Below, one piece after another: positions 916 to 19,850 of a stretch of 64,000 nucleotides of DNA; position 1 is the stretch's first letter; every line of letters begins with the position of its first letter. Where the stretch lies: positions 62,001 to 126,000 of the forward strand of contig SUTV01000002.1 in NCBI GenBank assembly GCA_015152515.1, in the 5' to 3' direction. Origin of the DNA: Cyanobacteria bacterium SIG29 (GTDB lineage: Bacteria > Cyanobacteriota > Vampirovibrionia > Gastranaerophilales > Gastranaerophilaceae). The notes beneath the pieces are model-generated. The model searched no databases. It was not told the DNA's origin and saw nothing but the letters and a program-made list of their open reading frames with translations. The translations under genes and the position numbers were made by a program.

Positions 916-952
916 TTTGTTTTTCCTTTTATTGTTACTACTTTTATTAAAA

Positions 953-981
953 TTTAACTCAGCTTACGCCATTAGTATAAT
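953..981 (+). promoter_or_regulatory. possible promoter for the 1133 gene
   Basis: TTTAAC at 953-958 and TATAAT at 976-981 are 17 bp apart on the + strand. This would give a leader of about 145 nt before the small gene at 1133. The region is very AT-rich, so a chance match is possible. Confidence 0.3.
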
Positions 982-1132
982 CTTTACATAAACACAATTT
1001 TTTTTAAAGAACTTGATTATATTTTTGAAATTTTTATGTAAAGAAAAATTAAAATTTACTTTTTTGAACTAAAGTTTTTTGTTTTTTTGACGACAAAACC
1101 CTCATCACAAGATTTGAAAAGGAGAGTTATTC

Positions 1133-1357
1133 ATGTCAAACGAAAGAAGATTAATCTTTAGAAACATTATTGGTGATGCTCAAGCAACTATTAATGCTAT
1201 TCAAAAATATATTACAGAAAATTCTCCAAGCAAAACTATTAATGATGTTGAATGCGAAATTGAAGAAGCACCAGCAGATTCAATCAACAGAGTAATCAAT
1301 GCTGTTGCTTGCGAAGAAACAAACGCTGAAATTCAAGGAATTATTAATAGACTATAG
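1133..1357 (+). CDS. small hypothetical protein (74 aa)
   Basis: Unrecognised small acidic soluble protein with no signal peptide or membrane segment. It starts with ATG after a strong GGAGAG Shine-Dalgarno (spacing about 7) and has two cysteines (in NDVECEIEE and NAVACEETN). It is predicted mostly helical. It sits alone between the divergent fusA and the downstream asnS, 64 bp before the asnS start. Codon use matches the neighbours and the ribosome site is good, so it is probably a real gene; the function is unknown. Confidence 0.7.
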   Translation: MSNERRLIFRNIIGDAQATINAIQKYITENSPSKTINDVECEIEEAPADSINRVINAVACEETNAEIQGIINRL

Positions 1358-1421
1358 TTTAATTTGAATTAAAAATATGATAAAATTAACCCGCATAGTA
1401 TTTTATGGGGTTAATTTTATT

Positions 1422-2708: not shown

Positions 2709-2734
2709 AAAAGAGGCGAATGCCTCTTTTTTTT
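2707..2734 (+). terminator. intrinsic terminator after asnS
   Basis: GAGGC (2713-2717), a gaat loop and GCCTC (2722-2726) are followed by eight T and preceded by six A. It could work on both strands, but only asnS reads into it. Confidence 0.85.
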
Positions 2735-2798
2735 ATATTAATACTTTTAAATTATGTAAAAGATTAGTTTTTGATTAAATTTATTTTATAATTAAAGA

Positions 2799-3281
2799 AT
2801 GAGAATATTAGGCATAGACCCAGGGCTTGCAATTGTAGGCTACGGCATAATTGATATAGAAAAAGATGAAAACTATCTTGTTTCATCAGGTTCAATTCAA
2901 ACTGATAAAAATAACAATGATTCAGCTAGATTACTTGAAATCCAAACAGATATGCAAACAATTATAGATACATACAAACCTGATGTTGCAAGCATAGAAA
3001 AACTATTTTATTTCAAAAATCAAAAAACAATTATCCCAGTAGCAGAAGCTAGAGGTGTAATTTTAGCCACATTAGAAAAAAACAATATAAAAATTGCAGA
3101 ATTTACCCCTATAGAAGTAAAACAAATGATTACTGGTTATGGCAGAGCTTCAAAACAAGAAGTTGCTAAAATTGTAGAGATGTCTATAAAATATAAAAAA
3201 CTACCAAAATTAGATGATACTTTAGACTCTATCGCAATAGCACTATGCTATGGAAGAAGTAACCCAACAACAAGGAATTAA
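2799..3281 (+). CDS. ruvC: Holliday junction resolvase RuvC
   Basis: Endonuclease that resolves Holliday junctions with RuvAB. The RNase H-fold catalytic acids are visible: D7 in GIDPG, E67 in ASIEKLFYFKN, and D140/D143 in the DDTLDSIAIALCY helix. The length of 160 aa is normal for the family. There is no Shine-Dalgarno sequence; instead TATAAT (2787-2792) ends 6 bases before the ATG, which suggests a leaderless mRNA. The stop codon overlaps the next gene's ATG by one base. Confidence 0.95.
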   Translation: MRILGIDPGLAIVGYGIIDIEKDENYLVSSGSIQTDKNNNDSARLLEIQTDMQTIIDTYKPDVASIEKLFYFKNQKTIIPVAEARGVILATLEKNNIKIAEFTPIEVKQMITGYGRASKQEVAKIVEMSIKYKKLPKLDDTLDSIAIALCYGRSNPTTRN

Positions 3282-3724
3282 TGATGATTAACAAAGAACT
3301 TTTAAAAGTATTGAGTATTTTTTCAATAATTATAGGTGCAATTTTAGGTGTTTTACCCTTAATTCCAGCTTTAACAGGAATTGCTTTTTTCTTATTATTA
3401 TTCATTGTTTCACCATTTATATTAATTTATTTCAAACACATAAAAATAATTGAAGATTATAATATGGAAAAATGTTTAATCATTGGTGCAATTTCAGGTG
3501 CAATTGCTTGCGTTGGATTTACACTCATCTATTTTCCAATAGCTTTTATTTTACAATTAATTTTCAAAATAAATTCTTTTATTTGGATAAAAGTACTATT
3601 TACAAACATTGGATTTGTAATTCCAATGGTATTTTTCACTTCAATTATAAGTGCAATTTCTAATTCTTTTTCTGCATTTTTAATTGCATACTATTTTGAA
3701 TTTATAAAACAAAACAAACAATAA
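3281..3724 (+). CDS. hypothetical inner-membrane protein, about 4 TM
   Basis: A 147-aa hydrophobic protein with about four membrane segments (about residues 8-27, 30-52, 64-95 and 103-140). I recognise no family. It overlaps ruvC by one base (TAATG). A second ATG at 3284 lies better spaced from the AGGA at 3273-3276, so the true start may be 3284. It is probably co-transcribed with ruvC and mtnA. The position gives no functional clue. Confidence 0.75.
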   Translation: MMINKELLKVLSIFSIIIGAILGVLPLIPALTGIAFFLLLFIVSPFILIYFKHIKIIEDYNMEKCLIIGAISGAIACVGFTLIYFPIAFILQLIFKINSFIWIKVLFTNIGFVIPMVFFTSIISAISNSFSAFLIAYYFEFIKQNKQ

Positions 3725-3736
3725 AAGGACTTAATT

Positions 3737-4795
3737 ATGGCTTTTGAATCTAAAATTAAAACAATCGAATGGGTTGATAATGTATCAAGAATGATTGACC
3801 AAACAATTCTTCCATACGAATTTAAAACCGTTGATATAAAAACCACAAAAGAAATGTATTATGCTATTAAAGATATGATTGTTAGAGGTGCCCCAGCTAT
3901 TGGTATTGCAGGTGCACACGGAGTTAGTTTATCAGCTATTGAACTATCAAAAACCATAAACGATAAAAATGAATTTCTAACAGAATTACAAAAACAAGCA
4001 GACTATTTAAAATCATCAAGACCAACTGCTGTTAATCTAATGTGGGCAGTTGATAAACAAATGCAATTAGCAAAAAATACTCAAGGTGATGTTAAAGAAA
4101 TTACAAAAGCTTTAATTGAAAACGGCATAAAACTAGAAAACGAAGATATTGAAATAAATAAAAAAATGGGGGATTATGGCGCAGAAGTTGTACCAAAAGG
4201 TGCTACTATTTTAACCCATTGTAATGCTGGTGCTTTAGCAACAGTTGGCTATGGCACAGCTTTAGGTGTTATTAGAAGCGCATATGCAAAAGACCCAACT
4301 ATTAAAGTTTTTGCAGATGAAACTCGACCACGCCAACAAGGAGCAAGGCTAACTACTTGGGAATTAACTCAAGATGGAATTCCTACCACCTTAATTACAG
4401 ATGGTATGTGTTCATATTTCATGTCTAAAGGTATGATTCAAATGGTTGTTGTTGGTGCAGATAGAATTGCAGCAAATGGAGATACAGCAAATAAAATAGG
4501 AACATACACAGTTGCTATTGCAGCAAAATATCATAATATTCCATTTTATATTGCAGCACCACTTTCAACAATTGATACCTCAATTAAATCAGGTAAAGAA
4601 ATCCCGATTGAAGAACGTTCGCATGAAGAAGTTACCCATATAAATGGCGACTGGATTTGTGCAAAAGACGTGAACATAATAAACCCTGGATTTGATGTAA
4701 CTCCACACGAGTTAATCACAGGTATTATCACAGAAAAAGGTATTTTAAAACCTGATTTTGAAACATCTATAAGAAAAGCGTTTTTAAATAATTAA
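3737..4795 (+). CDS. mtnA: methylthioribose-1-phosphate isomerase
   Basis: Converts 5-methylthioribose-1-phosphate to methylthioribulose-1-phosphate in the methionine salvage pathway. It shows the family signatures RGAPAIG (50-56), THCNAGALAT with catalytic Cys162, and VVVGADRIAANGD with Asp242; these match the C160/D240 pair of the B. subtilis enzyme. The length of 352 aa is normal. It has an AAAGGA ribosome site. No other mtn gene is nearby, so the pathway must be completed elsewhere or the enzyme serves another purine-sugar salvage route. An eIF2B-like protein is less likely because both catalytic residues are present. Confidence 0.93.
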   Translation: MAFESKIKTIEWVDNVSRMIDQTILPYEFKTVDIKTTKEMYYAIKDMIVRGAPAIGIAGAHGVSLSAIELSKTINDKNEFLTELQKQADYLKSSRPTAVNLMWAVDKQMQLAKNTQGDVKEITKALIENGIKLENEDIEINKKMGDYGAEVVPKGATILTHCNAGALATVGYGTALGVIRSAYAKDPTIKVFADETRPRQQGARLTTWELTQDGIPTTLITDGMCSYFMSKGMIQMVVVGADRIAANGDTANKIGTYTVAIAAKYHNIPFYIAAPLSTIDTSIKSGKEIPIEERSHEEVTHINGDWICAKDVNIINPGFDVTPHELITGIITEKGILKPDFETSIRKAFLNN

Positions 4796-4806
4796 ACATT
4801 TGTTTA

Positions 4807-4835
4807 TTGTCAAACCCAATCAAAAATGATAAAAT
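4807..4835 (+). promoter_or_regulatory. sigma70-type promoter for the Skp-like gene
   Basis: TTGTCA (4807-4812) and TAAAAT (4830-4835) are separated by exactly 17 bp, placing the start near 4842 and a short leader before the ATG at 4860. Confidence 0.6.
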
Positions 4836-4859
4836 TTGGCAAGATAAGAGGAATTAATT

Positions 4860-5327
4860 ATGAAAAAACAAATTAAACTTGTAACACTGTCTGTATTGGT
4901 GTTTGCGCTTGGTATGACAGCAGGGAATTTTGCCGTTAGCGATGTTCCTGCAAATTACAAAGTTGCTATAGTAGATGTTCAAAAAGTTGTATCATCATCA
5001 GCTCAAGTTAAAGCTCTAAAAGCTGACCAAAAGAAAAAAGGTCAAGAACTTGCCAAATTTATAGAAACAGCTAAAACAGCTATTGAAAAAGAAAAAGATA
5101 CAAAAAAACGCGAAGCTCTTGAACAAAAATATAACAAAGAATTCAATGCTAAACGCTTAGAAATGGCAAAAACAAATGAGAAAAAATTATTAGAAATTGA
5201 TAAAAACATAACTGACCTAATCAATACAAAAGCAAAAGAAGACGGTTATAATTTAGTTCTAGTAAAAGGAGCTGTATTATCAGGTGGAACCGATATTACA
5301 GACGAAATTACAAAAGCTGTAAAATAA
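4860..5327 (+). CDS. OmpH/Skp-family periplasmic chaperone-like protein (1)
   Basis: Skp-like proteins hold unfolded outer-membrane proteins in the periplasm. A signal peptide covers about residues 1-25 (MKKQIKLVTL, then a hydrophobic core ending near GNFA). It is followed by the family start KVAIVDVQKVVSSS, a long charged coiled coil (about 45-115) and the closing AKEDGYNLVLVKGAVLSGGTDITDEI. The length of 155 aa fits. A second, diverged member lies at 6506 on the other side of aroF. The gene has its own promoter and terminator, so it is monocistronic. Confidence 0.88.
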   Translation: MKKQIKLVTLSVLVFALGMTAGNFAVSDVPANYKVAIVDVQKVVSSSAQVKALKADQKKKGQELAKFIETAKTAIEKEKDTKKREALEQKYNKEFNAKRLEMAKTNEKKLLEIDKNITDLINTKAKEDGYNLVLVKGAVLSGGTDITDEITKAVK

Positions 5328-5343
5328 AAAATAAATAAAATAC

Positions 5344-5378
5344 AAAAAAATCATCATATTAATTATGATGATTTTTTT
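5344..5378. terminator. bidirectional terminator between the Skp-like gene and aroF
   Basis: A 15-bp perfect hairpin: seven A plus TCATCATA, loop TTAAT (5359-5363), then TATGATGA plus seven T. The flanking A and T tracts let it end both the + strand Skp-like gene and the - strand aroF. Confidence 0.9.
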
Positions 5379-5395
5379 ATTTGAAAATATTTAAA

Positions 5396-6406
5396 TTAAA
5401 ATGATTTTTTCATTATTGTAGCAAATGCTTTTAAATCATTAAATAAAACTGAAAACTCTTCTGGACAAAGTGATTGAGCACCATCACATAAAGCTGTTTC
5501 AGGTGAGTTATGAACTTCGATAATAAGCCCATTAGCACCAGCAGCTACAGAAGCTTTTGACATAGGTGCCACTTTATCTCTTAAACCAGTTGCATGGCTT
5601 GGGTCAACAACTATTGGCAAATGGCTTATTTTTTGAACAACAGGAATAGCAGAAACATCAAGAGTATTTCTTGTAATATGCTCAAAAGTTCTTATACCGC
5701 GTTCGCATAAAATAACTTCTCTATTCCCACCAGCCATAATATATTCTGCAGACATTAAAAGTTCTTCAACTGTTGCGCTTAAACCCCTTTTTAAAAGTAC
5801 AGGTTTTTTAATTTCACCTAATGCTTTTAATAAGTTGAAATTTTGCATATTTCTAGCACCAACTTGCAAAATATCAACATACTTTAAAAACATAGGTATT
5901 TGGTTTACTTCCATAACTTCAGAAGTTACAGCCATATTATATTTATCAGCAACTTCTTTTAATATTTTAAGCCCTTCTTCGCCTAAACCTTGAAAAGCAT
6001 AAGGTGATGTTCTTGGTTTAAAAGCACCTCCACGAAGAACTCTAACACCAGCTTCAGCCAATTTTTTAGCAGTAGCATCAACTTGGTCATAAGTTTCTAC
6101 ACTACAAGGTCCTGCAATCATCCCAATATAATTACCACCAAATTTAACACCTTTAACATCAATAATGGTATCTTCAGGCTTAAAAACTCTACTTACAAGT
6201 TTATAAGGAGAAGAAATTCTAATAACTTCACTAACGCCATCTAAAAGTTCGATATCACGTTTATCAATAACTTTTCTACCAACAGCACCAATTACTGTAT
6301 GGTCAGCACCGTTAGAAACATGCGCTTCAAAACCACGCTCTTTAATAAAAGAAATAACTTTTTGAATTTTTTCCTCAGAACTCTGAGGTTGCATTACTAT
6401 TAACAT
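5396..6406 (-). CDS. aroF: 3-deoxy-7-phosphoheptulonate synthase (DAHP synthase, AroF/class I beta)
   Basis: First enzyme of the shikimate pathway; condenses phosphoenolpyruvate with erythrose-4-phosphate. It has an N-terminal ferredoxin-like regulatory domain (about 1-70, MLIVMQPQSSEEKIQKVISF), as in the Thermotoga-type enzyme, followed by the barrel with IAGPCSVE, RGGAFKPRTSPYAFQGLG, LQVGARNMQNF, LLKRG and VVDPSHATG. The regulatory domain implies feedback control by aromatic amino acids. The ATG follows GGAGAG. No other aro genes are close. Confidence 0.95.
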   Translation of the reverse strand: MLIVMQPQSSEEKIQKVISFIKERGFEAHVSNGADHTVIGAVGRKVIDKRDIELLDGVSEVIRISSPYKLVSRVFKPEDTIIDVKGVKFGGNYIGMIAGPCSVETYDQVDATAKKLAEAGVRVLRGGAFKPRTSPYAFQGLGEEGLKILKEVADKYNMAVTSEVMEVNQIPMFLKYVDILQVGARNMQNFNLLKALGEIKKPVLLKRGLSATVEELLMSAEYIMAGGNREVILCERGIRTFEHITRNTLDVSAIPVVQKISHLPIVVDPSHATGLRDKVAPMSKASVAAGANGLIIEVHNSPETALCDGAQSLCPEEFSVLFNDLKAFATIMKKSF

Positions 6407-6505
6407 ATTTCATCTCTCCTTAGCTTGATTATATAATAGACATAGAAATTTTGCTTGTTTTTATATACATCATTTGCTAAAATTAACTTATTATAGGAGG
6501 TTATA

Positions 6506-6958
6506 ATGTTAAAAATAAAATTTCTTCTAACAGCAATGTTAATTATGTTAGCAACAAACATGACTGCAAATGCAGCAAATATTGGATATGCAGATTTCCA
6601 AAAAGTTTTATCAGAATATAAATATGCTAAAAGCGCATATAAAGATATCGATAATAAATTACTTGAATTACAACAATATGTAATTGATAAAGATAAACAA
6701 TTCAAAGCTATTGAATCACCTATTCAAAAGAAAACTTTTGAAGAACAAATTAAAAAAGAATTCAAAGCAAAAGAAGATAGAATTTATAACTTAAAAGTAC
6801 AAAAAGAAAAAGAAATTCAAAATAATATCTTAACTGCATCAAAATCAGTAGCAGCAACTAAAAAATTAGATGTTGTTTTAGATTACAGCGTAGTTTATGC
6901 TGGTGGTGTTGATGTAACAAACGACATCATCCAATATTTAAACTCACCAAAAAAATAA
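6506..6958 (+). CDS. OmpH/Skp-family periplasmic chaperone-like protein (2)
   Basis: A 150-aa secreted protein with a clear signal peptide (MLKIKFLLTAMLIMLATNMTANA, cleavage after ANA). The Skp-like start NIGYADFQKVLSEYKYAK is followed by a charged helical region and the closing KLDVVLDYSVVYAGGVDVTNDII, which parallels the end of the protein at 4860. The two are diverged paralogues. A strong AGGAGG ribosome site precedes the ATG. The gene ends in its own terminator. Confidence 0.85.
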   Translation: MLKIKFLLTAMLIMLATNMTANAANIGYADFQKVLSEYKYAKSAYKDIDNKLLELQQYVIDKDKQFKAIESPIQKKTFEEQIKKEFKAKEDRIYNLKVQKEKEIQNNILTASKSVAATKKLDVVLDYSVVYAGGVDVTNDIIQYLNSPKK

Positions 6959-6978
6959 CATAAGATTAAATTATTAAA

Positions 6979-7005
6979 AAAAGAAGCCTTACATGGGCTT
7001 CTTTT
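6979..7005 (+). terminator. terminator after the second Skp-like gene
   Basis: GAAGCC (6983-6988), a 7-base loop and GGCTTC (6996-7001) with flanking A and T runs. It stands 22 bases before the next start codon, so some read-through into the phosphorylase gene is possible. Confidence 0.75.
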
Positions 7006-7026
7006 CTCAACTTTATAGGAGTTTAT

Positions 7027-8331
7027 ATGAAAATAGTTGACATTATTGAAAAAAAGAAAAAAGGTCTAACTTTAACAGAAGAAGAAATTAAATTCTTTAT
7101 TGATGGAATTATGGATAATTCTATTGCAGATTACCAAGCAAGTGCTCTTTTAATGGCAATTTATTTTAAAGGAATGACTTTAGATGAAACAACTTGGCTA
7201 ACAAAATATATGGTTGAATCAGGTGAAATCCTTGATTTATCAGATATTTCAAAAGATATTGTTGATAAACACTCAACAGGTGGTGTTGGCGATAAAATTA
7301 CATTAATGTTCTTACCTTTAATGGCAGCGGCAGGTATTCATACCGCAAAATTATCAGGTCGTGGTTTAGGTCATACTGGTGGAACTATTGATAAATTAGA
7401 ATCAATACCAAACTTCAAAACAGATTTAAGCATTGATGAATTTAAAGCAAAAGTAAAAGAACTCAATACTGCAATCGCATCACAAACTTTATCTTTAGCG
7501 CCAGCAGATGGTAAATTATATGCGCTTCGTGATGTAACATCTACCGTTGATATTATTCCATTAATTGCATCATCTGTTGTATCTAAAAAAATTGCATCAG
7601 GTGCAAACCATATTGTATTAGATGTTAAATGTGGTTCAGGTGCATTTATTAAAACACCTGAAGAAGCTGAAAAATTATCAACAGTTATGGTTGAAGTTGG
7701 TAAACGCTTAAACAGAAACATTTGCGCAGTTATTAGTTCTATGGATCAACCTTTAGGTAGAGCTATTGGTAACTCTGTTGAAATTCAAGAAGTTATTGAA
7801 TTTTTAAAAGGCAATATGGAAGTAGATTTAAAAGAAATCACTTATACACTTTGCCAAACAGCATTTGAAAAAGCAGGCAAATTCTCTTCTAAAGAAGAAG
7901 CTTATAAATATTTAGATGAATTAATTGAAAGCGGTAAAGCACTAGAAAAATTCAGAGAAATTGTGAAATCTCAAAATGGTGATGATTCTATTATTGAAGA
8001 TTACACAAAACTACCTCAAGCTAGCATTAAATATGAAGTTAAAGCAACTAAAGATGGTTTTGTAAAAAACATTGATGCTTTAAAAATCGCAAAAGCGTGC
8101 AAGAATTTAGGTGCTGGTCGTGATAAAAAATCTGACCCAATTGATTATTCAGCTGGTATTTATTTAACTCAAAAATATGCAGAACCTGTTTGCGAAGGCG
8201 AAACAATTGCTGTTCTATATACTAATAAAAATGAAGCAATTAAAGACGCTGAAAAATTAGTTTTAGAAGCATTTGAAATAACAGATGATGAACAACCTCC
8301 TAAATCTTTAATTTATAAAATTATTCATTAA
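7027..8331 (+). CDS. pyrimidine-nucleoside (thymidine) phosphorylase
   Basis: Phosphorolysis of thymidine or uridine to the base plus (deoxy)ribose-1-phosphate. Family features: N-terminal helical domain, KHSTGGVGDKITL (phosphate-binding), the signature SGRGLGHTGGTIDKLESIPNF (about 113-133), DVKCGSGAF, and the C-terminal PYNP domain (about 340-420). The length of 434 aa matches Pdp/DeoA. I cannot separate deoA from pdp by eye, so no symbol is given. It has an AGGAG ribosome site. The gene stands alone between two terminators. Confidence 0.93.
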   Translation: MKIVDIIEKKKKGLTLTEEEIKFFIDGIMDNSIADYQASALLMAIYFKGMTLDETTWLTKYMVESGEILDLSDISKDIVDKHSTGGVGDKITLMFLPLMAAAGIHTAKLSGRGLGHTGGTIDKLESIPNFKTDLSIDEFKAKVKELNTAIASQTLSLAPADGKLYALRDVTSTVDIIPLIASSVVSKKIASGANHIVLDVKCGSGAFIKTPEEAEKLSTVMVEVGKRLNRNICAVISSMDQPLGRAIGNSVEIQEVIEFLKGNMEVDLKEITYTLCQTAFEKAGKFSSKEEAYKYLDELIESGKALEKFREIVKSQNGDDSIIEDYTKLPQASIKYEVKATKDGFVKNIDALKIAKACKNLGAGRDKKSDPIDYSAGIYLTQKYAEPVCEGETIAVLYTNKNEAIKDAEKLVLEAFEITDDEQPPKSLIYKIIH

Positions 8332-8340
8332 TAAATAAAA

Positions 8341-8369
8341 GAAGCTACCTAATTGGTAGCTTCTTTTTT
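8341..8369. terminator. terminator between the phosphorylase and the HAD-like gene
   Basis: GAAGCTACC (8341-8349), loop taatt, GGTAGCTTC (8355-8363) and six T. It separates two converging genes and may serve both. Confidence 0.9.
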
Positions 8370-8377
8370 ATTAAATC

Positions 8378-8716
8378 CTACAATTTATACCAAGGCTGAA
8401 AGTTATTAATTTTATTTTTTAAATCATTATAATTTCCATTAAAACAAATACATCTATCGTCTATATACAACCAACAAAGGTCTTTTTTATTTGTAACACC
8501 TGAAATAATTTCATCAAGATTATTTTCTTTTATCCAATTTTGAACAAGATTAAATTCCCTTGTTGTAAAAATTTTTATTTTGTAGTCTTTTGATATATCT
8601 TCTAAAAATTCTTTTGCACCAATTTTTATTGACGGTATAAAACCTTCAATATAATTACCAGTATATTCATTTAATACACCATCTAAATCAATTAAAATTG
8701 TTTTTTTAAAAAACAT
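8378..8716 (-). CDS. small HAD-like phosphatase-fold protein
   Basis: A 112-aa protein with a compact HAD layout: motif I LIDLDGVLN (nucleophile D10, second acid D12), motif II FTTRE (T51/T52), a lysine-containing stretch TNKKDL (77-80) and motif III-like YIDDR (D86/D87). It lacks a large cap domain and is short for the superfamily. The substrate is unknown. It is divergent from the XRE regulator at 8778; the shared 61-bp gap carries a split inverted repeat, so it may be a regulatory target. Confidence 0.7.
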   Translation of the reverse strand: MFFKKTILIDLDGVLNEYTGNYIEGFIPSIKIGAKEFLEDISKDYKIKIFTTREFNLVQNWIKENNLDEIISGVTNKKDLCWLYIDDRCICFNGNYNDLKNKINNFQPWYKL

Positions 8717-8727
8717 AATTAGTTATC

Positions 8728-8792
8728 CGTGCTATTTGCCTGTTAAATACCATTAAATTATAAACCATAATTTCAGTATGACAAATAGCACG
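8728..8792. promoter_or_regulatory. split 11-bp inverted repeat flanking the XRE promoter
   Basis: CGTGCTATTTG (8728-8738) and its exact reverse complement CAAATAGCACG (8782-8792) are 43 bp apart. The left arm overlaps the -35 TTGCCT (8736-8741). The right arm lies inside codons 2-5 of the XRE gene. TATAAA (8759-8764) is 17 bp from the -35. This suggests autoregulation by looping or paired dimer binding; the regulator's identity is inferred. Confidence 0.55.
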
Positions 8793-8987
8793 ATTAAATT
8801 AATTCAAAATAATATAAAAAAGTACCGAAATGAAAGAAAATTAACACAGGAACAACTTTCAGAAATGGTTGGCATTTCTTGTGATTATTTATCTGAAATC
8901 GAACGAGGAAAAAAGATACCAAGTTTAAAAAGATTTATTGCCATTGTTGAAGCATTGGATATACCATTTACAAAATTTTTCAAATAA
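8778..8987 (+). CDS. small XRE-family (Cro/CI-type) DNA-binding regulator
   Basis: A 69-aa stand-alone HTH_3 domain: IKKYRNERKLTQEQLSEMVGIS (helices 1-3) and DYLSEIERGKKIPSLKRFIAI (recognition helix to helix 5). There is no extra sensing domain. No Shine-Dalgarno sequence precedes the ATG; the nearest -10-like elements (TATAAA 8759-8764, CATAAT 8766-8771) would give a nearly leaderless or leaderless mRNA. It is divergent from the HAD-like gene. It is likely an autorepressor, given the inverted repeat over its promoter and first codons. Confidence 0.88.
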   Translation: MTNSTIKLIQNNIKKYRNERKLTQEQLSEMVGISCDYLSEIERGKKIPSLKRFIAIVEALDIPFTKFFK

Positions 8988-9020
8988 TATCTTCTCTAAA
9001 ATACATATTTTAAAACGCAA

Positions 9021-9075
9021 CCATATATGGAGTTTCGTAATTTTGTTCTATTTTTAATGTGCCATATATGGAGTT
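9021..9075. repeat. pair of CCATATATGGAGTT direct repeats with palindromic cores
   Basis: The 14-base string occurs at 9021-9034 and 9062-9075, 41 bp apart (about four helical turns). Each core, CCATATATGG, is a perfect palindrome. They lie in the gap between two converging genes and lack a T-run, so they are not terminators. A binding site pair or a weak promoter (TTGTTC 9043-9048, TATATG 9065-9070) are alternatives. Confidence 0.5.
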
Positions 9076-9083
9076 ATAATATT

Positions 9084-9497
9084 CTATGCTATAACTTCTT
9101 GATTTGCTTTAATAATGTCTTCTAAAATAATACCGCAATCTGCCACCATGCCGGCACAATGCTCTCTTCTTTCTTTAGAATGAAAATCATCAAACCCGCT
9201 ACTTAAAACTTTACAACAATTAACCTTATATTTTTTAGCAAATTCTTCACTAAATTGTTTAGCTAAAGCTCTAGCTTTTTTACCATCACGCTCTTGATTC
9301 TTTCCATACATTGCACCAATAACCATTTGAGAGCCTGCAACAGCACCACACAAACATCTAACACCCATTCCACCAGAAAATGATGTTGCAATTGCTAAAG
9401 CTTCTTGTGAAATATAACCTTTATCAGCAGCCGCTTGCACAATAGCTTCACTACAAGAATATCCACCTAAAAAATATTTAACTGCTAAATCTTTCAT
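9084..9497 (-). CDS. C_GCAxxG_C_C family protein (TIGR01909-type)
   Basis: A 137-aa cysteine-rich protein with GGYSCSEAI (Cys15), CLCGAVAGSQMVIGA (Cys48, Cys50), NCCKVL (Cys94, Cys95) and HCAGMVADCGIIL (Cys114, Cys121), the cysteine order that names the family. It is thought to bind metal or redox groups; its role is not established. An upstream in-frame start at 9518 exists, but GGAGAG at 9502-9507 is placed for the ATG at 9497, so I use that start. No partner genes are adjacent. Confidence 0.88.
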   Translation of the reverse strand: MKDLAVKYFLGGYSCSEAIVQAAADKGYISQEALAIATSFSGGMGVRCLCGAVAGSQMVIGAMYGKNQERDGKKARALAKQFSEEFAKKYKVNCCKVLSSGFDDFHSKERREHCAGMVADCGIILEDIIKANQEVIA

Positions 9498-9527
9498 AAA
9501 ACTCTCCTTTTTTTTCATTATAACACT

Positions 9528-9555
9528 TGAAAAACCATGAAAAATATGTTACAAT
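9528..9555 (+). promoter_or_regulatory. promoter for the structured leader / glycosidase gene
   Basis: TTGAAA (9528-9533) and TACAAT (9550-9555) are 16 bp apart; a transcript would start near 9562, about 24 bases before the first possible start codon. Confidence 0.5.
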
Positions 9556-9561
9556 TGTAGT

Positions 9562-9760
9562 ATAACGAAGCACGGAACAGATTTATGTATGCACTCGCTG
9601 AACAAAGAATATTTTGCTTCGAGAAAATGGTCTTAAAACTTGGAACTTTATTGATGGCACTGGCCGTTTTCTCAGGTCAAAATATGTCCATGAGTGCATA
9701 CAGCGTAAAACCAATCCTTGAGGGTCATATTATAAAAGAGCATGTTAATGCTCTTTTTTT
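9562..9760 (+). ncRNA. candidate ~195-nt structured RNA ending in a terminator (6S-like or attenuating leader)
   Basis: Three nested helices stack into a rod: 9586-9597 with 9691-9702 (12 bp, one G-U), 9609-9616 with 9678-9685 (8 bp perfect), and 9621-9630 with 9664-9673 (10 bp, one G-U). They are separated by internal loops and followed at once by the intrinsic terminator at 9734-9760. The segment is visibly more GC-rich than its flanks. A competing pairing, CGAAGCA (9566-9572) with TGCTTCG (9615-9621), crosses the rod and would give a switch or pseudoknot. Length and shape resemble 6S RNA, but the segment also reads as the signal-peptide region of the gene starting at 9585, so attenuation is equally possible. 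Function is inferred only. Confidence 0.4.
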
Positions 9761-10772
9761 ATTAGAAAAAAAATACAAAAACTTTAATCTTGAAAAAGTT
9801 AAAGAAGGAATTTTTTATATAAGGCAAAACAAAATAATCAATAAACATAATATAAAGATTAATGTTATTGAAATCAATAAAGACTTAAACCCTAATTTAA
9901 TAATCGAACCCAAATTAGCAACAGAAAATCTACATTCAAAATCAAAAATTAAAGATATAGCAAAAGATAGTATTATCGCGATAAATGGGACATATTTTAA
10001 ACAAAATACAGGTACACCACTAGGAACATTAGTTATAAATAACGAAATAATAACAGGACCTATTTATGAAAGAGTAGCATTTGGTATTGGGGAAAATGAA
10101 TTTAAAACAGGAAGATTGGGCTTTGAAGGAAAACTAAAAAAAGGTAAATCAGAAATAAAAATCAACAACATAAACCAACCAAGAATGCTATATTCAGATG
10201 TTTTAATTTATACATCTAAATGGGGAAAATATTCGCCAAAAACAAAAGCCAATTACAAAAATATTTTAATAAAAAACAATAAAATTATAGAAACATCATC
10301 TAGTCCAATAGAAATTAAAGAAAATGAAATAGTTATATCAGCACAAGAAGAAAAGCTTATAGATTTTGAAATTGGAGATAAAGTAAAACTTGAGTATAAT
10401 CTAACTCCAAATTGGAAAGAGATAAAACATATAATAAGTGGTGGACCATATTTATTAAAAGAGGGTGAAATTTTTATAGATACAGCCAGTGAAAAATTAA
10501 ACGCAATTGCGGGTAGAAATCCAAGAACTGCTATTGGATATACAAAAGATAATTCTTTAATAATGGTAACTGTTGATGGAAGAAAAGAAGGTACAAGCGG
10601 AGTAACTTTAAAAGAACTTGCAAAAATTATGAGTGATTTAGGTTGTTATGAAGCAATCAATTTAGATGGTGGCAGTTCAACCGTTATGTATGTAAATGGC
10701 AAAGTTTTAAATGGTAGTAATGTAAAATCTACTTTAGTTAGCAATGCAATAATTGTTAGAGAAAAAGCATAA
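9585..10772 (+). CDS. phosphodiester glycosidase family protein (NAGPA/DUF2233-type), secreted
   Basis: The C-terminal two thirds (about residues 110-392) match the family of N-acetylglucosamine-1-phosphodiester alpha-N-acetylglucosaminidase: IAINGTYF, GGPYLLKEG, GRNPRTAIGYTKDNSLIMVTVDGR and EAINLDGGSSTVMYVNG. These enzymes act on phosphodiester-linked sugars outside the cytoplasm. Residues 15-40 (MVLKLGTLLMALAVFSGQ) look like a signal peptide, so I keep the upstream start; ATGs at 9585, 9627 and 9654 are in frame and none has a strong ribosome site. Codons 50-58 coincide with a perfect intrinsic terminator. The first 50 codons use GTC, CTG, GCC and CTC, unlike the neighbours, consistent with RNA-structure constraint. 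Confidence 0.8.
   Translation: MYALAEQRIFCFEKMVLKLGTLLMALAVFSGQNMSMSAYSVKPILEGHIIKEHVNALFLLEKKYKNFNLEKVKEGIFYIRQNKIINKHNIKINVIEINKDLNPNLIIEPKLATENLHSKSKIKDIAKDSIIAINGTYFKQNTGTPLGTLVINNEIITGPIYERVAFGIGENEFKTGRLGFEGKLKKGKSEIKINNINQPRMLYSDVLIYTSKWGKYSPKTKANYKNILIKNNKIIETSSSPIEIKENEIVISAQEEKLIDFEIGDKVKLEYNLTPNWKEIKHIISGGPYLLKEGEIFIDTASEKLNAIAGRNPRTAIGYTKDNSLIMVTVDGRKEGTSGVTLKELAKIMSDLGCYEAINLDGGSSTVMYVNGKVLNGSNVKSTLVSNAIIVREKA
9734..9760 (+). terminator. intrinsic terminator inside the 5' part of the glycosidase gene
   Basis: AAAAGAGCAT (9734-9743), loop GTTA, ATGCTCTTTT (9748-9757) and a T-run to 9760. A 10-bp perfect stem of this quality within codons 50-58 of a gene is unexpected and implies attenuation, or a separate small RNA ending here. 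Confidence 0.75.
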
Positions 10773-10823
10773 TTTAATTAAATGTGCTAATATTACTATG
10801 TTAATTTAATTAAATGGTAAAAA

Positions 10824-11072
10824 ATGAAAAACAAAGCGTTTTCTCTTGCAGAAGTATTGATTACTTTAGTTGTTATTGGTGTTGTAGCTGCTATTACAAT
10901 ACCAACTCTAATGGTTAATTTTCAAAAAGAAAAAACCGTTATTAAATTAAAAAAAGCTTATTCTACCTTGTACAATGTATATAATTTATCTGTTAGTCAT
11001 AATGGCCCAGTTGATCAATAGGATTTTGGGAAAAATACATATGATTGGAATGTTTCAAGAGAGTTTTTTACC
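10824..11072 (+). pseudogene. truncated prepilin-like gene with a nonsense codon
   Basis: The first 65 codons encode a type II/IV prepilin N-terminus: short basic leader, FSLAEVLITLVVIGVVAAITIPTL, then a helical stem ending GPVDQ. TAG at 11019-11021 interrupts the frame; downstream the same frame continues with pilin-like DFGKNTYDWNVSREFFT, so TAG most likely replaced a TGG tryptophan codon. The frame then runs into the tail of the - strand gene at 11073 and ends, so the C-terminal head is missing too. Only a weak ribosome site precedes the ATG. A 14-base direct repeat (10771-10784, 10803-10816) lies just upstream. An intact relative is at 43541. Confidence 0.8.
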
Positions 11073-11558
11073 CTAGTAAAAATTCGCTTCTTTATAACGC
11101 CTATATTCATTTAATTGAGCATAAAAATCAGGCCACCAAACTTTTATCAAACCATCTATAATTCCAACATCCTCATGGTATGCTATACCTTCACCACGAG
11201 GATTAATATACTTTGTGTTAAAAGTTTCCATCATCATTGGCGTCATTGCGCTGCCTCTTATAGCACTTCTTGTACTTTCAATTTTTAAAGTGTTTATTCG
11301 TTCAGTCGGAGTTCCTGCTTGTATTGCATGAAATAATTCTAATTCAAGACGCTCTAACCTATCAATTGTATTTTCATCAGGAAAAGAGATATTATACAGC
11401 CTTTTTTCTATTGTAGCCAAAGCTTTATACTGTTGTTTTGTAATATTAACCAATCTAGGATTATCAGCAGTATTTTCAATTTCAAATGCAAATGAAAAAT
11501 AAGGCAAAATAAAAAACAAAAGAAAACACATACCAAGCTTTTTTGGTATTCTAAACAT
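11073..11558 (-). CDS. secreted hypothetical protein with an ERLExxxF-type helical motif
   Basis: A 161-aa protein with a signal peptide (MFRIPKKLGMCFLLFFILPYFSFA, about 1-24). Residues 50-92 (IEKRLYN, then TIDRLERLELELF, then ERINTLK) form a helical motif of regularly spaced Leu/Arg/Glu that I have seen repeated in secreted proteins of this lineage; here there is one and a half copies. The C-terminal part is aromatic-rich (KVWWPDFYAQLNEYRRY). A GGGAAG ribosome site precedes the ATG. Function unknown. Its 3' end abuts the broken prepilin on the other strand. Confidence 0.75.
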   Translation of the reverse strand: MFRIPKKLGMCFLLFFILPYFSFAFEIENTADNPRLVNITKQQYKALATIEKRLYNISFPDENTIDRLERLELELFHAIQAGTPTERINTLKIESTRSAIRGSAMTPMMMETFNTKYINPRGEGIAYHEDVGIIDGLIKVWWPDFYAQLNEYRRYKEANFY

Positions 11559-11651
11559 AACACACTTCCCGCAAACTATATCTTAAGTTTACGGAATTTT
11601 TATTTGATTTTAATTAGAAAAAAGCACTATAAAATATAACTATTATTCTTA

Positions 11652-12119
11652 TTAATTAATAATAATTGAATTTTTATTTCCTTCTTCAATTTGAATAACA
11701 ATTTCACCAGTTCTATTATCAGCAGAAACAATTATTGGTACAGCAGAATAATAGCCATTAGCTTGATAATATTTCATAACATCTCTTCTAATAGCAGATA
11801 AATTTTCAACAACCATAGGTTTTTCAATAAGCTTTTTAACAACAACTTGTAATTCTGAATCAGGAATAGCATTATTTCCAACAAAAGTTATTTTTTTAAT
11901 TTCATTAACCACATCTGGGAAAACTTGTTCATTTAAAGAAGTTTTTGGTTTAACAATAGCACTTTTTTGTTTAGTACGAGAAGCTACTTCATGAAGTCTT
12001 AAATCTCTAGTATATTGAGAGTTAATAGCACCAGCATCCATGCCTCCCATCACATTAGCGAAAGCATAATCTACATTAGAAACTAACAAAATACACGCAA
12101 GTATAAAAATCTTTTTCAT
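11652..12119 (-). CDS. secreted POTRA-domain protein
   Basis: A 155-aa protein with a signal peptide (1-21, ending YAFA). A linker is followed by a single ShlB-type POTRA domain (about 74-147): IKKITFVGNNAIPDSELQVVVKKLIEKPM, LSAIRRDVMKYYQANGYYSAVPIIV, GEIVIQIEEG. POTRA domains normally precede an outer-membrane barrel (FhaC/BamA), but the protein ends right after the domain, so a barrel is missing. It could act as a detached periplasmic POTRA partner. A GGAG ribosome site precedes the ATG. It is divergent from tig. Confidence 0.82.
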   Translation of the reverse strand: MKKIFILACILLVSNVDYAFANVMGGMDAGAINSQYTRDLRLHEVASRTKQKSAIVKPKTSLNEQVFPDVVNEIKKITFVGNNAIPDSELQVVVKKLIEKPMVVENLSAIRRDVMKYYQANGYYSAVPIIVSADNRTGEIVIQIEEGNKNSIIIN

Positions 12120-12182
12120 AAAATACTCCTTTTATTCTAAAATCATTATAACACATTTAGTCCTCCATATCGTCTATTTTTA

Positions 12183-12209
12183 TTGAAAGAATTATGTTTA
12201 TGTTATAAT
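12183..12209 (+). promoter_or_regulatory. possible tig promoter
   Basis: TTGAAA (12183-12188) and TATAAT (12204-12209) are 15 bp apart; the start would lie near 12216, giving a leader of about 65 nt before tig. The spacing is slightly short. Confidence 0.4.
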
Positions 12210-12280
12210 CTATTTTGTGATAGGTTAGAATTTCTATCATTTTGGACATGTGTATTATCAAATAGAAAAGGTGACATAAA

Positions 12281-13579
12281 ATGACAGTAACAATCGAAAA
12301 ACTAGAAAACAATGAAGTAAAATTAAATATTGAAATTGAAGCTTCTGTGACAACATGGGAATATGACAAAGCATGCAAAAAACTTTCTCAAAGAGTAAAT
12401 GTTCCTGGTTTCAGACAAGGTAAAGCTCCAAAAAATATAATTGAAAAATATGTTGGTATTGCTGCTATTCAAAGAGAAGTTTTAGATAGCTTATTACCTA
12501 CAATTTTTGAATCAACTATTGAAGAAAATAAATTCGATTTAGTATCAGCTCCAAGTGTTGAATCATTTAATTTTGCTGACGACAAATCATTAAAAATCGT
12601 AGCTAAATTTGAATTAAAACCAGAAGTTAAATTAGAAAACTACAAAGGTATGGAAGTTGAAGTTGAAGAATTCAAAAATGCTGAAGATGTAGTTGAAAAA
12701 GAATTAAACATTTTAGTTGATAGATATGCTTCATTAGAAGAAGTTACTGGCAGAAAAACAACAGCAACAGACTTAGTAAACATTGACTTTGCTGGTTATG
12801 CTAATGGCGAAGAAATTAAAGGTGGAAGCGCTAAAGGTTACATGTTAGATTTAGGACACTCTAACTTCATTCCTGGTTTTGCTGAACAATTAGTTGACCA
12901 CGAAATTGGCGAAGAATTCACAATTAAAGTTCAATTCCCAGCAGAATACCACGATGAAAAATTAAAAGGTGCAGATGCTGAATTCAACATCAAAATTAAC
13001 GGAATTAAAGAAAAAGTTCTTCCAGAAATTAATGATGAATTAGCAAAAAAAGTAAACCCAAATTTTGAAACTCTTGACGCATTAAAAGAAGATATCCAAA
13101 AATACGCTGAAAATAATGCAAAAATGGAAAACGAAAAAAGAGTAGCTAATAAAATATTTGATACATTATTAGAAAAAACAAACATTGATATTCAAGACAC
13201 AATGATTAATCGTGAAATCCAAGCATTAATGGGTGAATTCAGACAAAGAATCAACATGCAAGGTGGAAACTTTGACCAAATGCTTGAAAAAGAAGGACAC
13301 GAAAAAGTATATGCTCAAATGAAAGAAGAAGCTGTAAAAAGAATTAAAACTTCTTTAATCGTTGGTAAAATTGCATTAGAAGAAAATGTTAGCGTTTCTC
13401 AAGAAGACATTCAAGAAAAAATTACTGATTTAGCTAGCATTTACCGTACAACAACAGAAAATATTGTTGCAGAAATTCAAAAAAATATGAATTTATTACA
13501 CTCAATGAACCAACAAGTAATTACAGAAAAAGTTACTAAATTGTTAATTGATAGTGCAAAAGTTAAATATACAAAATAA
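12281..13579 (+). CDS. tig: trigger factor (ribosome-associated chaperone)
   Basis: Peptidyl-prolyl isomerase/chaperone at the ribosome exit tunnel. The ribosome-binding signature GFRQGKAP is at residues 43-50, in the tail domain. The FKBP-type middle domain covers about 160-250 (DLVNIDFAGYANGEEIKGG, then LGHSNFIPGFAEQLVDHEIGE) and is followed by the long helical C-domain. The length of 432 aa is standard. An AAGGTGA site precedes the ATG. First gene of tig-clpP-clpX, a classical order that couples folding to proteolysis. Confidence 0.97.
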   Translation: MTVTIEKLENNEVKLNIEIEASVTTWEYDKACKKLSQRVNVPGFRQGKAPKNIIEKYVGIAAIQREVLDSLLPTIFESTIEENKFDLVSAPSVESFNFADDKSLKIVAKFELKPEVKLENYKGMEVEVEEFKNAEDVVEKELNILVDRYASLEEVTGRKTTATDLVNIDFAGYANGEEIKGGSAKGYMLDLGHSNFIPGFAEQLVDHEIGEEFTIKVQFPAEYHDEKLKGADAEFNIKINGIKEKVLPEINDELAKKVNPNFETLDALKEDIQKYAENNAKMENEKRVANKIFDTLLEKTNIDIQDTMINREIQALMGEFRQRINMQGGNFDQMLEKEGHEKVYAQMKEEAVKRIKTSLIVGKIALEENVSVSQEDIQEKITDLASIYRTTTENIVAEIQKNMNLLHSMNQQVITEKVTKLLIDSAKVKYTK

Positions 13580-13600
13580 CAGGATTAGAAAGGGAAAAAT

Positions 13601-14209
13601 ATGAGTTTTGTACCTGTAGTTATAGAAAATTCAAGCAGAGGCGAAAGATCATTTGATATTTTCTCAAGATTATTAAGAGAAAGAATCATCTTCTTAGGCA
13701 CTCCTATTGATGACATGGTAGCAAACTTGATAGTTGCTCAATTACTATTATTAGATAGTGAAAACCCAGAAAAAGATATTATGCTATACATCAACTCACC
13801 TGGTGGTAGCGTAACAGCTGGTTTAGCTATTTATGACACAATGCAACACATCAGAGCAGATGTATCTACAATTTGTTTAGGTCAAGCTGCTTCTATGGGC
13901 GCATTCTTACTATCATCTGGTGCTAAAGGTAAAAGATTAGCATTACCACACTCAAGAGTATTAATCCACCAACCTTTAGGTGGCGCTCAAGGTCAAGCTA
14001 CAGATATCGAAATTCAAGCAGCTGAAATTATCAGAATTAAAAAGTCATTAAATGAAATTTTAGCTAGCAATACTGGTCAATCAATTAAGAAAATTGAAAA
14101 AGACACAGATAGAGACTATATCATGACACCAGAAGAAGCTTTAGAATACGGTATGATTGATAAAGTAGTTACAGTAAATACAACTCCAAAACCAAATCAG
14201 GAGATATAA
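13601..14209 (+). CDS. clpP: ATP-dependent Clp protease proteolytic subunit
   Basis: Serine protease barrel of ClpXP. The catalytic triad is visible: S98 in [10 protein letters not shown]123 in [10 protein letters not shown], and D172 in EKDTDRD. The length of 202 aa is typical and the propeptide is short. It lies 21 bp after tig and 3 bp before clpX, so it is in one operon. It has an AAAGGG ribosome site. Confidence 0.98.
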
Positions 14210-14212
14210 TTA

Positions 14213-15544
14213 ATGGGAACAATGGATGACAGTCGTTTAAAATGTTCATTCTGTGGTAAAACACAAGAGCAAGTTAAAAAATTAATTGCAGGTCCAGATG
14301 TTTATATCTGTGATGAGTGTGTTGAGCTGTGTAATGAAATTTTAGATGAAGAGTTTCTAGAAAATAAGGATAAACCTGAAGAAAAAGAAACTAAAGAAGC
14401 AGATATTACAAAAGTGCCTAAACCACACGAAATTAAAGCATATCTTGATGAATTTATTGTTGGTCAAGATGACGCAAAAAAAGTATTGTCTGTTGCTGTT
14501 TACAACCACTATAAAAGAATTGCACACAACGCTGTTAGCGATAAAGAGCAAGTTGAAATCCAAAAAAGTAATATTTTACTTGTTGGACCAACAGGTAGCG
14601 GTAAAACATTATTAGCTCAAACTTTAGCTAAAATGTTAGATGTTCCATTTGCAATCGCTGACGCTACAACATTAACAGAAGCAGGTTATGTTGGTGATGA
14701 CGTTGAAAACATTCTTTTAAGACTTTACCAAAGTGCTGATTTTGATGCTCAAAAAGCAGAAAGAGGTATTATCTATATCGATGAAATCGATAAAATCTCT
14801 AGAAAATCAGAAAATACAAGCATAACAAGAGACGTATCAGGTGAAGGCGTACAACAAGCATTATTAAAAATGATTGAAGGTACTGTTGCGAATGTTCCAC
14901 CTCAAGGCGGAAGAAAACATCCACATCAAGAATTCATACAAATTAATACTGCAAACATCTTATTCATTGTTGGTGGTGCGTTCGTTGGATTAGACAAAAT
15001 CGTTGAAAGACGTGCTGGTGATTCAACAACAATGGGCTTTGGCGCAGCTGCTAAAACTCAAGCAGAAAAAGAACTTGAAGCTGCTAAATTATTAAAGAAA
15101 TTACAACCAGAAGATTTATTGAAATTTGGTTTAATTCCTGAATTTATTGGCCGTGTTCCAGTTTATGCTGTATTAGACCAACTTGAAGAATCTACATTGA
15201 AAAATATTTTAACTCAACCTAAAAATGCACTATTAAAACAATATCAATGTTTATTAGGTATGGATGGTGTTGAATTAAAATTTGAACCAGAAGCTGTTGA
15301 TTTAATTGCAGCAGAAGCCATTAAACGCAAAACTGGTGCAAGAGCACTTCGCTCAATTGTAGAAGAAATAATGATGGATATTATGTATGCATTACCATCA
15401 CAAGAAGACGTAAAAGAATTTACTTTAACGGCTGATATGGTTAAAAAGAAAAATGAAGGAGTTGCAGAGTTAATTAAACTTCCAACAAAGAAAGAAGAAG
15501 TTAAAGAAACTCCAGAGCAAAGCCCAAAAGAAGAAATAGCATAA
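14213..15544 (+). CDS. clpX: ATP-dependent Clp protease ATPase subunit ClpX
   Basis: AAA+ unfoldase that feeds substrates to ClpP. It has an N-terminal C4 zinc-binding domain (C11, C14, C33, C36), Walker A GPTGSGKT (125-132), Walker [10 protein letters not shown], the sensor region, and the ClpP-docking loop in the C-terminal half ([16 protein letters not shown]). The tail is Lys/Glu-rich. The GGAG of the clpP end serves as its ribosome site. The operon ends in a strong terminator 2 bases after the stop. Confidence 0.98.
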
Positions 15545-15545
15545 G

Positions 15546-15575
15546 AAAAAACCTCCTAGAAATAGGAGGTTTTTT
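15546..15575 (+). terminator. terminator of the tig-clpP-clpX operon
   Basis: A 13-bp perfect stem: AAAAAACCTCCTA (15546-15558), a GAAA tetraloop, then TAGGAGGTTTTTT (15563-15575). Confidence 0.95.
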
Positions 15576-15632
15576 AATGAATAAATTTATCTAAGTAACG
15601 CAATTTTTATTTTTAGATGTTTTGTAGACCAT

Positions 15633-16202
15633 ATGTATAACGTATCCTTTTTTGGTCTAAAAGAAAATTTAGAATATGGTCGTCAAGCAATTGATGCAGT
15701 AAAAAAAGACTTCCCAAATGGGTTCAAGTCTAATTCATACTACAATGTTTTTGAAAAAAATAAAGACCCAGAAGTAGGTTGTGAACTAGGAATGCTTATT
15801 TCTAAAACAAGAGAAAGAATTGACGACAATAAAAAACACGGAATGGATAAATATGAAGCAACCATAGAAGCTGTAAAAAGATATGGTTGTGCAAACTGCG
15901 GAGAACAAGCACTTTTTATTAATAGAAAACTTTCAGAACAAGGCGTAAGAAACAAAATTATTATAATGGATATCAGAAATAATAATACAAACTATTCTGA
16001 AGATGGTCATACTTTTTGTGTTATAGACGATAGAGATATAGACGCAAGAGAACCAAGAAACTGGAGTGATAATGCTGTTATTGTTGATATGTGGTCAAAC
16101 ACAGTATGTCAGGCAAAAGAAGGCATTAAATACTTTTATGATTTATTTAAACCAAATAAACACACGCAGTACGTTTCTTTCTACGAAGATTTTTATGTTT
16201 AA
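15633..16202 (+). CDS. putative papain/transglutaminase-like Cys-His-Asp protein
   Basis: A 189-aa protein of unrecognised close family, but with the ordered residues of transglutaminase-like or effector-type cysteine enzymes: YGCANCGEQA (Cys89), DGHTFCVIDD (His126) and NAVIVDMWSN (Asp152). The NCGE, GH-hydrophobic and VxDxW trio is typical of catalytic triads in that fold. No signal peptide is seen. The N-terminus MYNVSFFGLK resembles that of the 50131 protein. There is no Shine-Dalgarno sequence before the ATG. It is monocistronic, between the clpX terminator and lepA. It could be a peptidase, amidase or host-directed enzyme; substrate unknown. Confidence 0.55.
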   Translation: MYNVSFFGLKENLEYGRQAIDAVKKDFPNGFKSNSYYNVFEKNKDPEVGCELGMLISKTRERIDDNKKHGMDKYEATIEAVKRYGCANCGEQALFINRKLSEQGVRNKIIIMDIRNNNTNYSEDGHTFCVIDDRDIDAREPRNWSDNAVIVDMWSNTVCQAKEGIKYFYDLFKPNKHTQYVSFYEDFYV

Positions 16203-16249
16203 TATATTTTTTTATTGGCAAACAATTTTTTCTATAATAAACTAATAAT

Positions 16250-18052: not shown

Positions 18053-18063
18053 AGGAGGTAAAA

Positions 18064-19769: not shown

Positions 19770-19771
19770 TA

Positions 19772-19801
19772 TTGACTTTTTTAATGAAATTATAATATAA
19801 T
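19772..19801 (+). promoter_or_regulatory. promoter of the MarR-RND efflux operon
   Basis: TTGACT (19772-19777) and TATAAT (19796-19801) are 18 bp apart, immediately upstream of the operator-like repeats. A second TATAAT (19791-19796) overlaps. Confidence 0.7.
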
Positions 19802-19833: not shown

Positions 19834-19850
19834 ATATAAGGGATTTACAC

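Follow-up and report, generated by a model that had tools for sequence, protein, structure and literature searches.

The region studied lies in a window of 64,000 nucleotides, by which we mean the whole stretch of DNA that was analysed, and comprises, on the forward strand, a promoter, a structured leader and the 5' end of a gene for a phosphodiester glycosidase of the NAGPA family (Table 1). The NAGPA domain itself occupies residues 244-391 of the predicted protein, and the best match of solved structure, extending over residues 83-391, is Slr0280 of Synechocystis (PDB 5h3k; NAGPA/DUF2233), a likeness at the protein level only. The gene was found in 36 of the 41 genomes of the genus, and it is to these 36 that genus counts refer; in the remaining five not even the body of the protein finds a counterpart at E<=1e-5. 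In all 36 homologues an ATG shortly 3' of the promoter opens a frame that continues across the hairpin and terminator described below. At 30 of these loci the frame measures 395-433 codons, apart from a single one that abuts a contig end and has 339. The protein sequence is well conserved, the signal-peptide-like segment included. A signal peptide, judged plausible in the first-pass annotation, is probable from this alignment as read by eye. The same annotation had supposed that a 6S RNA might have gone unrecognised because a reading frame passes through it; to judge from its retention in 36 of 36, that frame belongs to a genuine gene in these homologues and does not hide a non-coding RNA by chance.

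Table 1. Features of the leader and gene, in window positions, with examples of the 5'-UTR motif of sister genera in positions of their own loci.
Feature	Position	Strand	Remarks
Promoter TTGAAA-17-TACAAT	9527..9555	+	10/12 consensus, TG preceding -10
Promoter/initial-transcript box TGTTACAATTGTAGTA	9547..9562	+	conserved; single match in this genome (G000)
Possible alternative pairing, 5' side (Shine-Dalgarno region in relatives)	9566..9572	+	
ORF, 395 aa, phosphodiester glycosidase (NAGPA, PF09992), probably secreted	9585..10772	+	Pfam E 2.3e-40
Probable signal-peptide codons	9585..9698	+	protein alignment; cleavage near S-M-S-A, judged by eye
Outer helix, 5' arm (includes start-codon region)	9586..9597	+	present here; kept in part of genus
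Middle helix, 5' arm	9609..9616	+	present here; not conserved genus-wide
Possible alternative pairing, 3' side	9615..9621	+	
Core helix, 5' arm GAGAAAAUGGUC	9621..9632	+	consensus helix; GAG 23/24, GTC 25/26 fixed
Core helix, 3' arm GGCCGUUUUCUC	9662..9673	+	consensus helix; GTT 26/26, TTC 31/31 fixed
Middle helix, 3' arm	9678..9685	+	present here; not conserved genus-wide
Outer helix, 3' arm	9691..9702	+	present here; kept in part of genus
Predicted in-frame intrinsic terminator AAAAGAGCAU-GUUA-AUGCUCUUUU-UUU, codons ~51-59	9734..9760	+	conservation and codon permutation
Example copies of the 5'-UTR motif	L083:844-947; L092:1336-1440; L126:1430-1537	+; -; -	plus 37 more in alignment

The promoter, of the sigma-70 type, lies just upstream, as first proposed, with a spacer of 17 nucleotides and not 16. 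Its TACAAT box is unchanged at 30 of 30 genus loci while the -35 box occurs as small variants; [TC]ACAATTGTAGTA is found upstream of the gene at all 36 genus loci, and close variants of the box at many loci of other genera. Consensus matches in positions 1-20000 are no commoner than in shuffled sequence, either for promoters (94 against 100.0) or for terminators (10 against 8.5), and our calls of both therefore rest on conservation. We considered the promoter box as the signal of a regulon and rejected it: allowing at most one mismatch it occurs in 26 of 38 genomes, nearly all positive genus genomes having a single site, apart from G003 and G013 with two each. In the form TGTTACAATWGTAGTA (9547-9562 and homologous sites) the box is conserved across many genera regardless of the type of leader downstream, and TACAATTGTA within it is a perfect palindrome that might be an operator. 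On the other strand, a divergent gene for a C_GCAxxG_C_C redox-type protein (9084-9518) has its start facing the shared intergenic region; a limited scan caught a similar divergent ORF at 10 of 30 genus loci.

The G+C content of the leader region (36.7%) had been described as much higher than that of its surroundings. This is true of the downstream flank (19.1%) and not of the sequence directly upstream (31.7%); the window as a whole averages 29.6%, and 8% of its 199-nt windows match or exceed the region's value.

Folding of the leader and comparison with known RNA classes

The 199-nt RNA from 9562 to 9760 is predicted to fold at -57.2 kcal/mol, a stability reached by none of 200 dinucleotide shuffles (z = -4.1). 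Three nested helices, a pairing that crosses them and a perfect 10-bp terminator stem had been noted here, and all are present in the sequence. Conservation of the helices was assessed in 32 of the 36 genus loci, the set used also for synonymous conservation, covariation, codon fixation and alternative pairing; L010, L018, L019 and L027, whose proteins are near-identical to others, were left out. The innermost helix, drawn at first as 9621-9630/9664-9673 and two base pairs longer in its consensus version (9621-9632/9662-9673), is conserved, and its hairpin ends at 9673, 60 nt before the terminator begins. The two outer helices pair in 65.9% of cases against 65.9% in shuffles, no excess at all; they do beat versions of themselves slid along the alignment (29-52%, at most 51.7%). 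In some relatives TACGCA/TGCGTA or CGCATT/AATGCG can be seen by eye to replace TATGCA/TGCATA, in a differing register, so that this is not proof of pairing. We thus rejected the whole three-helix rod as a conserved structure and retained its core.

The crossing pairing does not overlap the terminator. Present in this sequence as had been noted, it is strong (-7.5 kcal/mol or better) in just 14 of 32 relatives. Duplexes between arms of the same relative are stronger than those between swapped arms, only 1 of 2000 permutations being as strong, in a test that relatedness confounds. We keep it as a candidate, a possible alternative pairing of the Shine-Dalgarno region.

The likeness to 6S RNA (RF00013) that had been remarked on consists of a length of ~195 nt and a rod-like fold in this one species. 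It differs in that the region is coding, in 36 of 36 homologues, and is free of Rfam matches: the whole window gave none at gathering score, positions 9450-9900 gave no 6S match even at E<=10, and the genome's own 6S match lies elsewhere, at C11:231632-231804, with 49.3 bits slightly over the cut-off of 46.4. We therefore reject this identity. A riboswitch would be expected to show an invariant unpaired aptamer core outside or upstream of the coding sequence. Here the element is itself coding and without Rfam match, and its fixed minority codons (see below) are located in paired parts, in the U-tract and at one alanine codon near the start, a picture that does not fit a riboswitch. The suggestion of a riboswitch or attenuator is accordingly kept in its second half, attenuator being the best-fitting label.

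An in-frame terminator conserved within the genus

The stem of the predicted terminator (9734-9743/9748-9757) runs into seven T (9754-9760), and 35 of the 36 genus homologues share a stem of GAGCA/TGCTC (GGCTC in L013) with seven T behind it. The sole homologue without it, L030 of genome G032, has kept the promoter and the gene and reads KKNIDTLAL where the others have KEQ..ALFL; it amounts to a natural test case. We searched the 64 kb for hairpins at least as stable as -8 kcal/mol with five or more T after them and obtained nine sites, of which six are intergenic (three places, each on both strands) and three intragenic in the sense direction. Among these three, we judged only 9734-9760 to be a compact canonical terminator.

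A hairpin ahead of a run of seven T may favour slippage of RNA polymerase, which the hairpin could stimulate here to yield a short, frameshifted product. In the 35 genus sequences that have the T7 run, the shifted frames stop 0-30 codons on, at varying distances, and no conserved product emerges; we consider slippage extremely improbable.

Selection on the RNA beyond the protein code

To separate RNA from protein constraint we compared folding with that of sequences in which synonymous codons had been permuted within each gene, at 30 genus loci; the seeds of the shuffles throughout were partly unfixed, and z-scores may shift slightly. In the window's own sequence both the leader hairpin (z = -3.9) and the terminator (z = -4.8) exceed all 200 permutations in stability. 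Across the genus the terminator windows average z = -3.3 (range -2.1 to -5.8, all 30 at or below -2.1), a set that includes L030 even though its site, at -2.4 kcal/mol, is no real terminator. The leader hairpin is less uniform, with a mean z of -1.7; it reaches -2 or below at 11 of the 30 loci and is unremarkable (z > -2) at the other 19. Control windows from the same genes, 207 in number, average -0.13 (sd 1.12), two of them lying beyond -4.

Measured against codon usage, synonymous conservation is greatest at the terminator (1.83-1.99), rises to 1.61 in columns of the core helix and is 0.97-1.37 from column 79 onward. We then scored each of the 217 alignment columns in which 22 or more of the 32 sequences agree on an amino acid that has synonymous codons, calling a column fixed if at least 95% use a codon whose share elsewhere is below one half. 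Nine columns qualify and all are in the leader, 9 of 33 there against 0 of 184 downstream (Fisher p = 1.6e-8, uncorrected for phylogeny, with the leader boundary at column ~73-74, the end of the terminator, chosen after viewing the profile of synonymous conservation). Eight of the nine sit in the core helix or the terminator; the ninth is a GCA (alanine) near the start. The arms of the core helix account for GAG, GTC, GTT and TTC, the terminator stem and U-tract for GAG (31/31), GCT (31/31), CTT (32/32) and TTA (27/28), and no fixed minority codon is found between the core-helix arms. For phenylalanine, the core helix uses TTC (31 of 31 sequences) but the U-tract TTT (31 of 31). As to pairing, 89.9% of the cells of the core helix and terminator are paired, against 89.1% in shuffles (7 of 500 as high) and 52-63% in slid versions, and their covariation score is equalled in 5 of 500 shuffles. 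With so little variation among the pairs, covariation is modest; its null consists of shuffles that leave phylogeny aside, and counts throughout treat related species as separate.

Could the structure be a mere by-product of a conserved signal peptide combined with A+T-rich codon use? The good conservation of the peptide, the partial constraint of the helix arms by amino acids and the modest covariation would all fit such an origin, which the codon-permutation tests and the restriction of minority-codon fixation to the leader make very improbable. Selection at the RNA level on the core helix, terminator stem and U-tract is evident from these comparisons, and the 5' end of the gene is by the same measure dual-coding, for a probable signal peptide and for an RNA core hairpin plus terminator. 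What had been proposed as a new conserved regulatory RNA is thus a conserved RNA element overlapping a gene, and not a free-standing non-coding RNA.

The fixed codons of the U-tract also bear on whether the hairpin acts on transcription or on translation. As an element of translational pausing it might slow the ribosome once the signal peptide has left the tunnel, so aiding targeting; the hairpin begins, by eye, ~12-20 codons past the probable signal peptide in the genus, and the protein is probably secreted. A pause hairpin would need neither the fixed TTT and TTA codons nor the seven T, and in genera g35, g40 and g43 the corresponding hairpin appears, again by eye, inside the signal peptide itself. 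We regard this alternative as improbable. The U-tract codons support a terminator, since a mere hairpin needs none of them.

A putative translation-gated attenuator in the gene's own first codons

A predicted intrinsic terminator thus lies 3' of a translated leader and is conserved beyond what coding needs. The reading that we favour, with a probability of about 0.6, is that the element is an attenuator gated by translation of the gene's own first codons; termination itself, its gating by ribosomes and the trigger are inferred from sequence comparison. A ribosome that starts promptly and trails RNA polymerase through the signal-peptide codons would cover the terminator arm, allowing the polymerase to read through and make full-length mRNA. 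Were initiation or early elongation slow, the terminator would fold and an RNA of ~195 nt without stop codon would be released, which the cell's tmRNA could clear. The core hairpin would most likely time the polymerase relative to the ribosome, and may be an element of pausing or of initiation control; the start-codon pairing, where present, would tune initiation.

Attenuators of the pyrBI, trp and bmrCD type rely on a short leader ORF that is separate from the gene and precedes it. The element described here would resemble them in that the place of the ribosome behind the polymerase would settle whether the terminator folds (for pyrBI, PMC4824070). It differs in that its 'leader' is the first codons of the gene itself and its terminator encodes residues of the protein; the crossing pairing, taken as a candidate antiterminator, is strong in 14 of 32 relatives and lies clear of the terminator. 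Measurements in E. coli bear on the gating step: a terminator a few bases past a stop codon is strongly repressed by ribosomes, and one inside a coding region is repressed partly, to 40% of its efficiency (PMC4824070). Such repression speaks for the attenuator reading, its being only partial for an in-gene terminator against it. Species with runaway transcription have been described (PMC13323073); ribosomes would not gate the terminator there, and if this lineage is among them, the gating model in its simple form fails.

Constitutive premature termination is an alternative. The terminator would simply generate a non-stop mRNA, in the manner of ArfA or BrfA, from which tmRNA would clear the ribosomes, and output would be tied to the capacity for tmRNA rescue or merely kept low. 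The in-frame terminator does precede any stop codon, in the layout of brfA, and the genome has a tmRNA (85.3 bits). In B. subtilis the in-ORF terminator of brfA is functional, as deletion of the terminator, synonymous mutations and fusions to lacZ showed (PMC6881298), a precedent on which the attenuator reading draws as well. That terminator, however, is near the 3' end of the gene, 62 of 71 codons are transcribed, the truncated protein works, and control is by trans-translation (PMC6881298). Here a glycosidase gene of 395 codons has its terminator at codons ~51-59, shortly past the probable signal peptide; ~85% of the protein, with the NAGPA domain that lies downstream, would be lost, and we see no reason for a link to rescue. 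The likeness to brfA and arfA thus ends at an intrinsic terminator within an ORF and a non-stop mRNA, and we consider such an explanation unlikely.

Terminators at the same gene in other genera

A match to the gene was found in 204 of 241 genomes, from which we took by hand a spread of genera amounting to 45 loci outside the genus. Nine of them carry an in-frame terminator near codons 54-61, counted from the first Met (the frame of L165, which ends at a contig end, was placed by homology), and in 36 it is absent. The nine are those of g47, g35 (two loci), g40, g43 and four genomes of f6, another family, in which the terminator is present in 4 of 4 genomes sampled. Only the g47 stem has GAGCA. 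The other eight are unlike it: GGCTCTGCC, AGTTCTGC or TGGCTCGGT in f6, and TCGGGTG or TCGGGCG in g35, g43 and g40. Codon permutation gave z-scores of -2.4 to -4.5 for these terminators, each equalled in stability by between 0 and 12 of 500 permutations, in windows preselected for a hairpin. Between two f6 genomes, G044 and G047, a C-G pair of the stem has become U-A by a synonymous change of Glu codon (by eye). Nothing points more strongly to retention of termination as such, and not of one given sequence, than this constancy of position while the stem sequence changes. On the other side, the 36 of 45 loci that have no terminator, and L030, which lacks it and has the gene, count against the attenuator reading.

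RNAs that result from premature termination can function in trans, and the terminated ~195-nt RNA might be a small RNA that starts within the 5' end of the gene; it would have a promoter of its own, a structured body and a canonical terminator. A conserved unpaired seed was not seen, fixed minority codons are absent from the segment between the core-helix arms where they might have marked one, and other genera retain the in-frame terminator with unrelated sequence. A trans-acting role accordingly seems doubtful, at the low end of likelihood.

Several loci outside the genus have features of their own. L158 has an extra weak hairpin at codon 27 (-8.5), and in L089, L155 and L161 a site lies beyond codon 100. 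At L089:1737-1822 (+) a match to bacterial small SRP RNA (47.5 bits) precedes the start codon of the NAGPA gene by ~0.4 kb. L048-L061 (12 loci of g30 and 2 of g39) show, from promoter to codon ~42, neither an in-frame terminator nor the 5'-UTR motif described next. The g30 leaders are more stable than their codon permutations (z = -1.8 to -5.3, 11 of 12 below -2.6; 60 permutations each), and in the predicted fold of L051 the end of the signal-peptide codons pairs with the Shine-Dalgarno region.

A 5'-UTR motif in sister genera

At 25 of the 45 loci outside the genus, 21 of them recognised by pattern and four (L156, L157, L160, L167) by a covariance model, the gene is preceded by an unclassified motif that reads GAGUGUUA(U)UCCCC..CCACUC, then an A-rich linker, then GGUAUCC, which can pair with the start AUGGAUAC. 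In shorter form its first part reads GAGUGUUAUUCCCC..CCACUC, and the helix GUAUCC/GGAUAC would take in the start codon. We aligned 40 distinct copies, each situated 55-75 nt upstream of the ATG of the same NAGPA gene. The search for two-sided changes at the 11 consensus pairs of these copies found none, so that the motif's helices rest on invariance. The model matches 69 of 117 genomes from the order, and each of these has a single copy except for one, in which a contig end carries another; gene context was verified for the 40 aligned copies, the 69 of 117 being matches at genome level. Within the genus the motif was not found, by the model in three genomes sampled or by the core pattern at the 36 loci, and Rfam gave no match over the motif at the 20 loci scanned, ten of which bear it. 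The small hairpin with its C-rich loop and A-rich tail looks similar in layout to preQ1-I.

Motif and in-frame terminator are found together at none of the 45 loci, and 11 have neither (Fisher p = 0.002 for exclusion, on the 21 pattern hits and uncorrected). We raise, tentatively and as a possibility that the odds do not favour, the idea that one probably secreted glycosidase gene is RNA-controlled across Gastranaerophilales by interchangeable devices, a riboswitch-like 5'-UTR motif or a translation-gated terminator, both reading the same signal.

Discussion

Searches of open-access literature gave precedents but no paper on this element; for this gut lineage they yielded nothing joining Gastranaerophilales with a riboswitch, and scarcely anything on regulatory RNA in Melainabacteria. 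A terminator that doubles as protein code is a clear case of overlapping codes, in which the needs of the RNA seem to fix single codons. If termination is indeed gated by the ribosome, the gene would carry its own checkpoint of coupling and would need no separate leader peptide. The recurrence of terminators with different stems, and their absence where the 5'-UTR motif is present, make the signal that would be sensed directly testable. Should the two devices prove to be interchangeable, translation of the signal-peptide codons would be the sensor of a transcription checkpoint.
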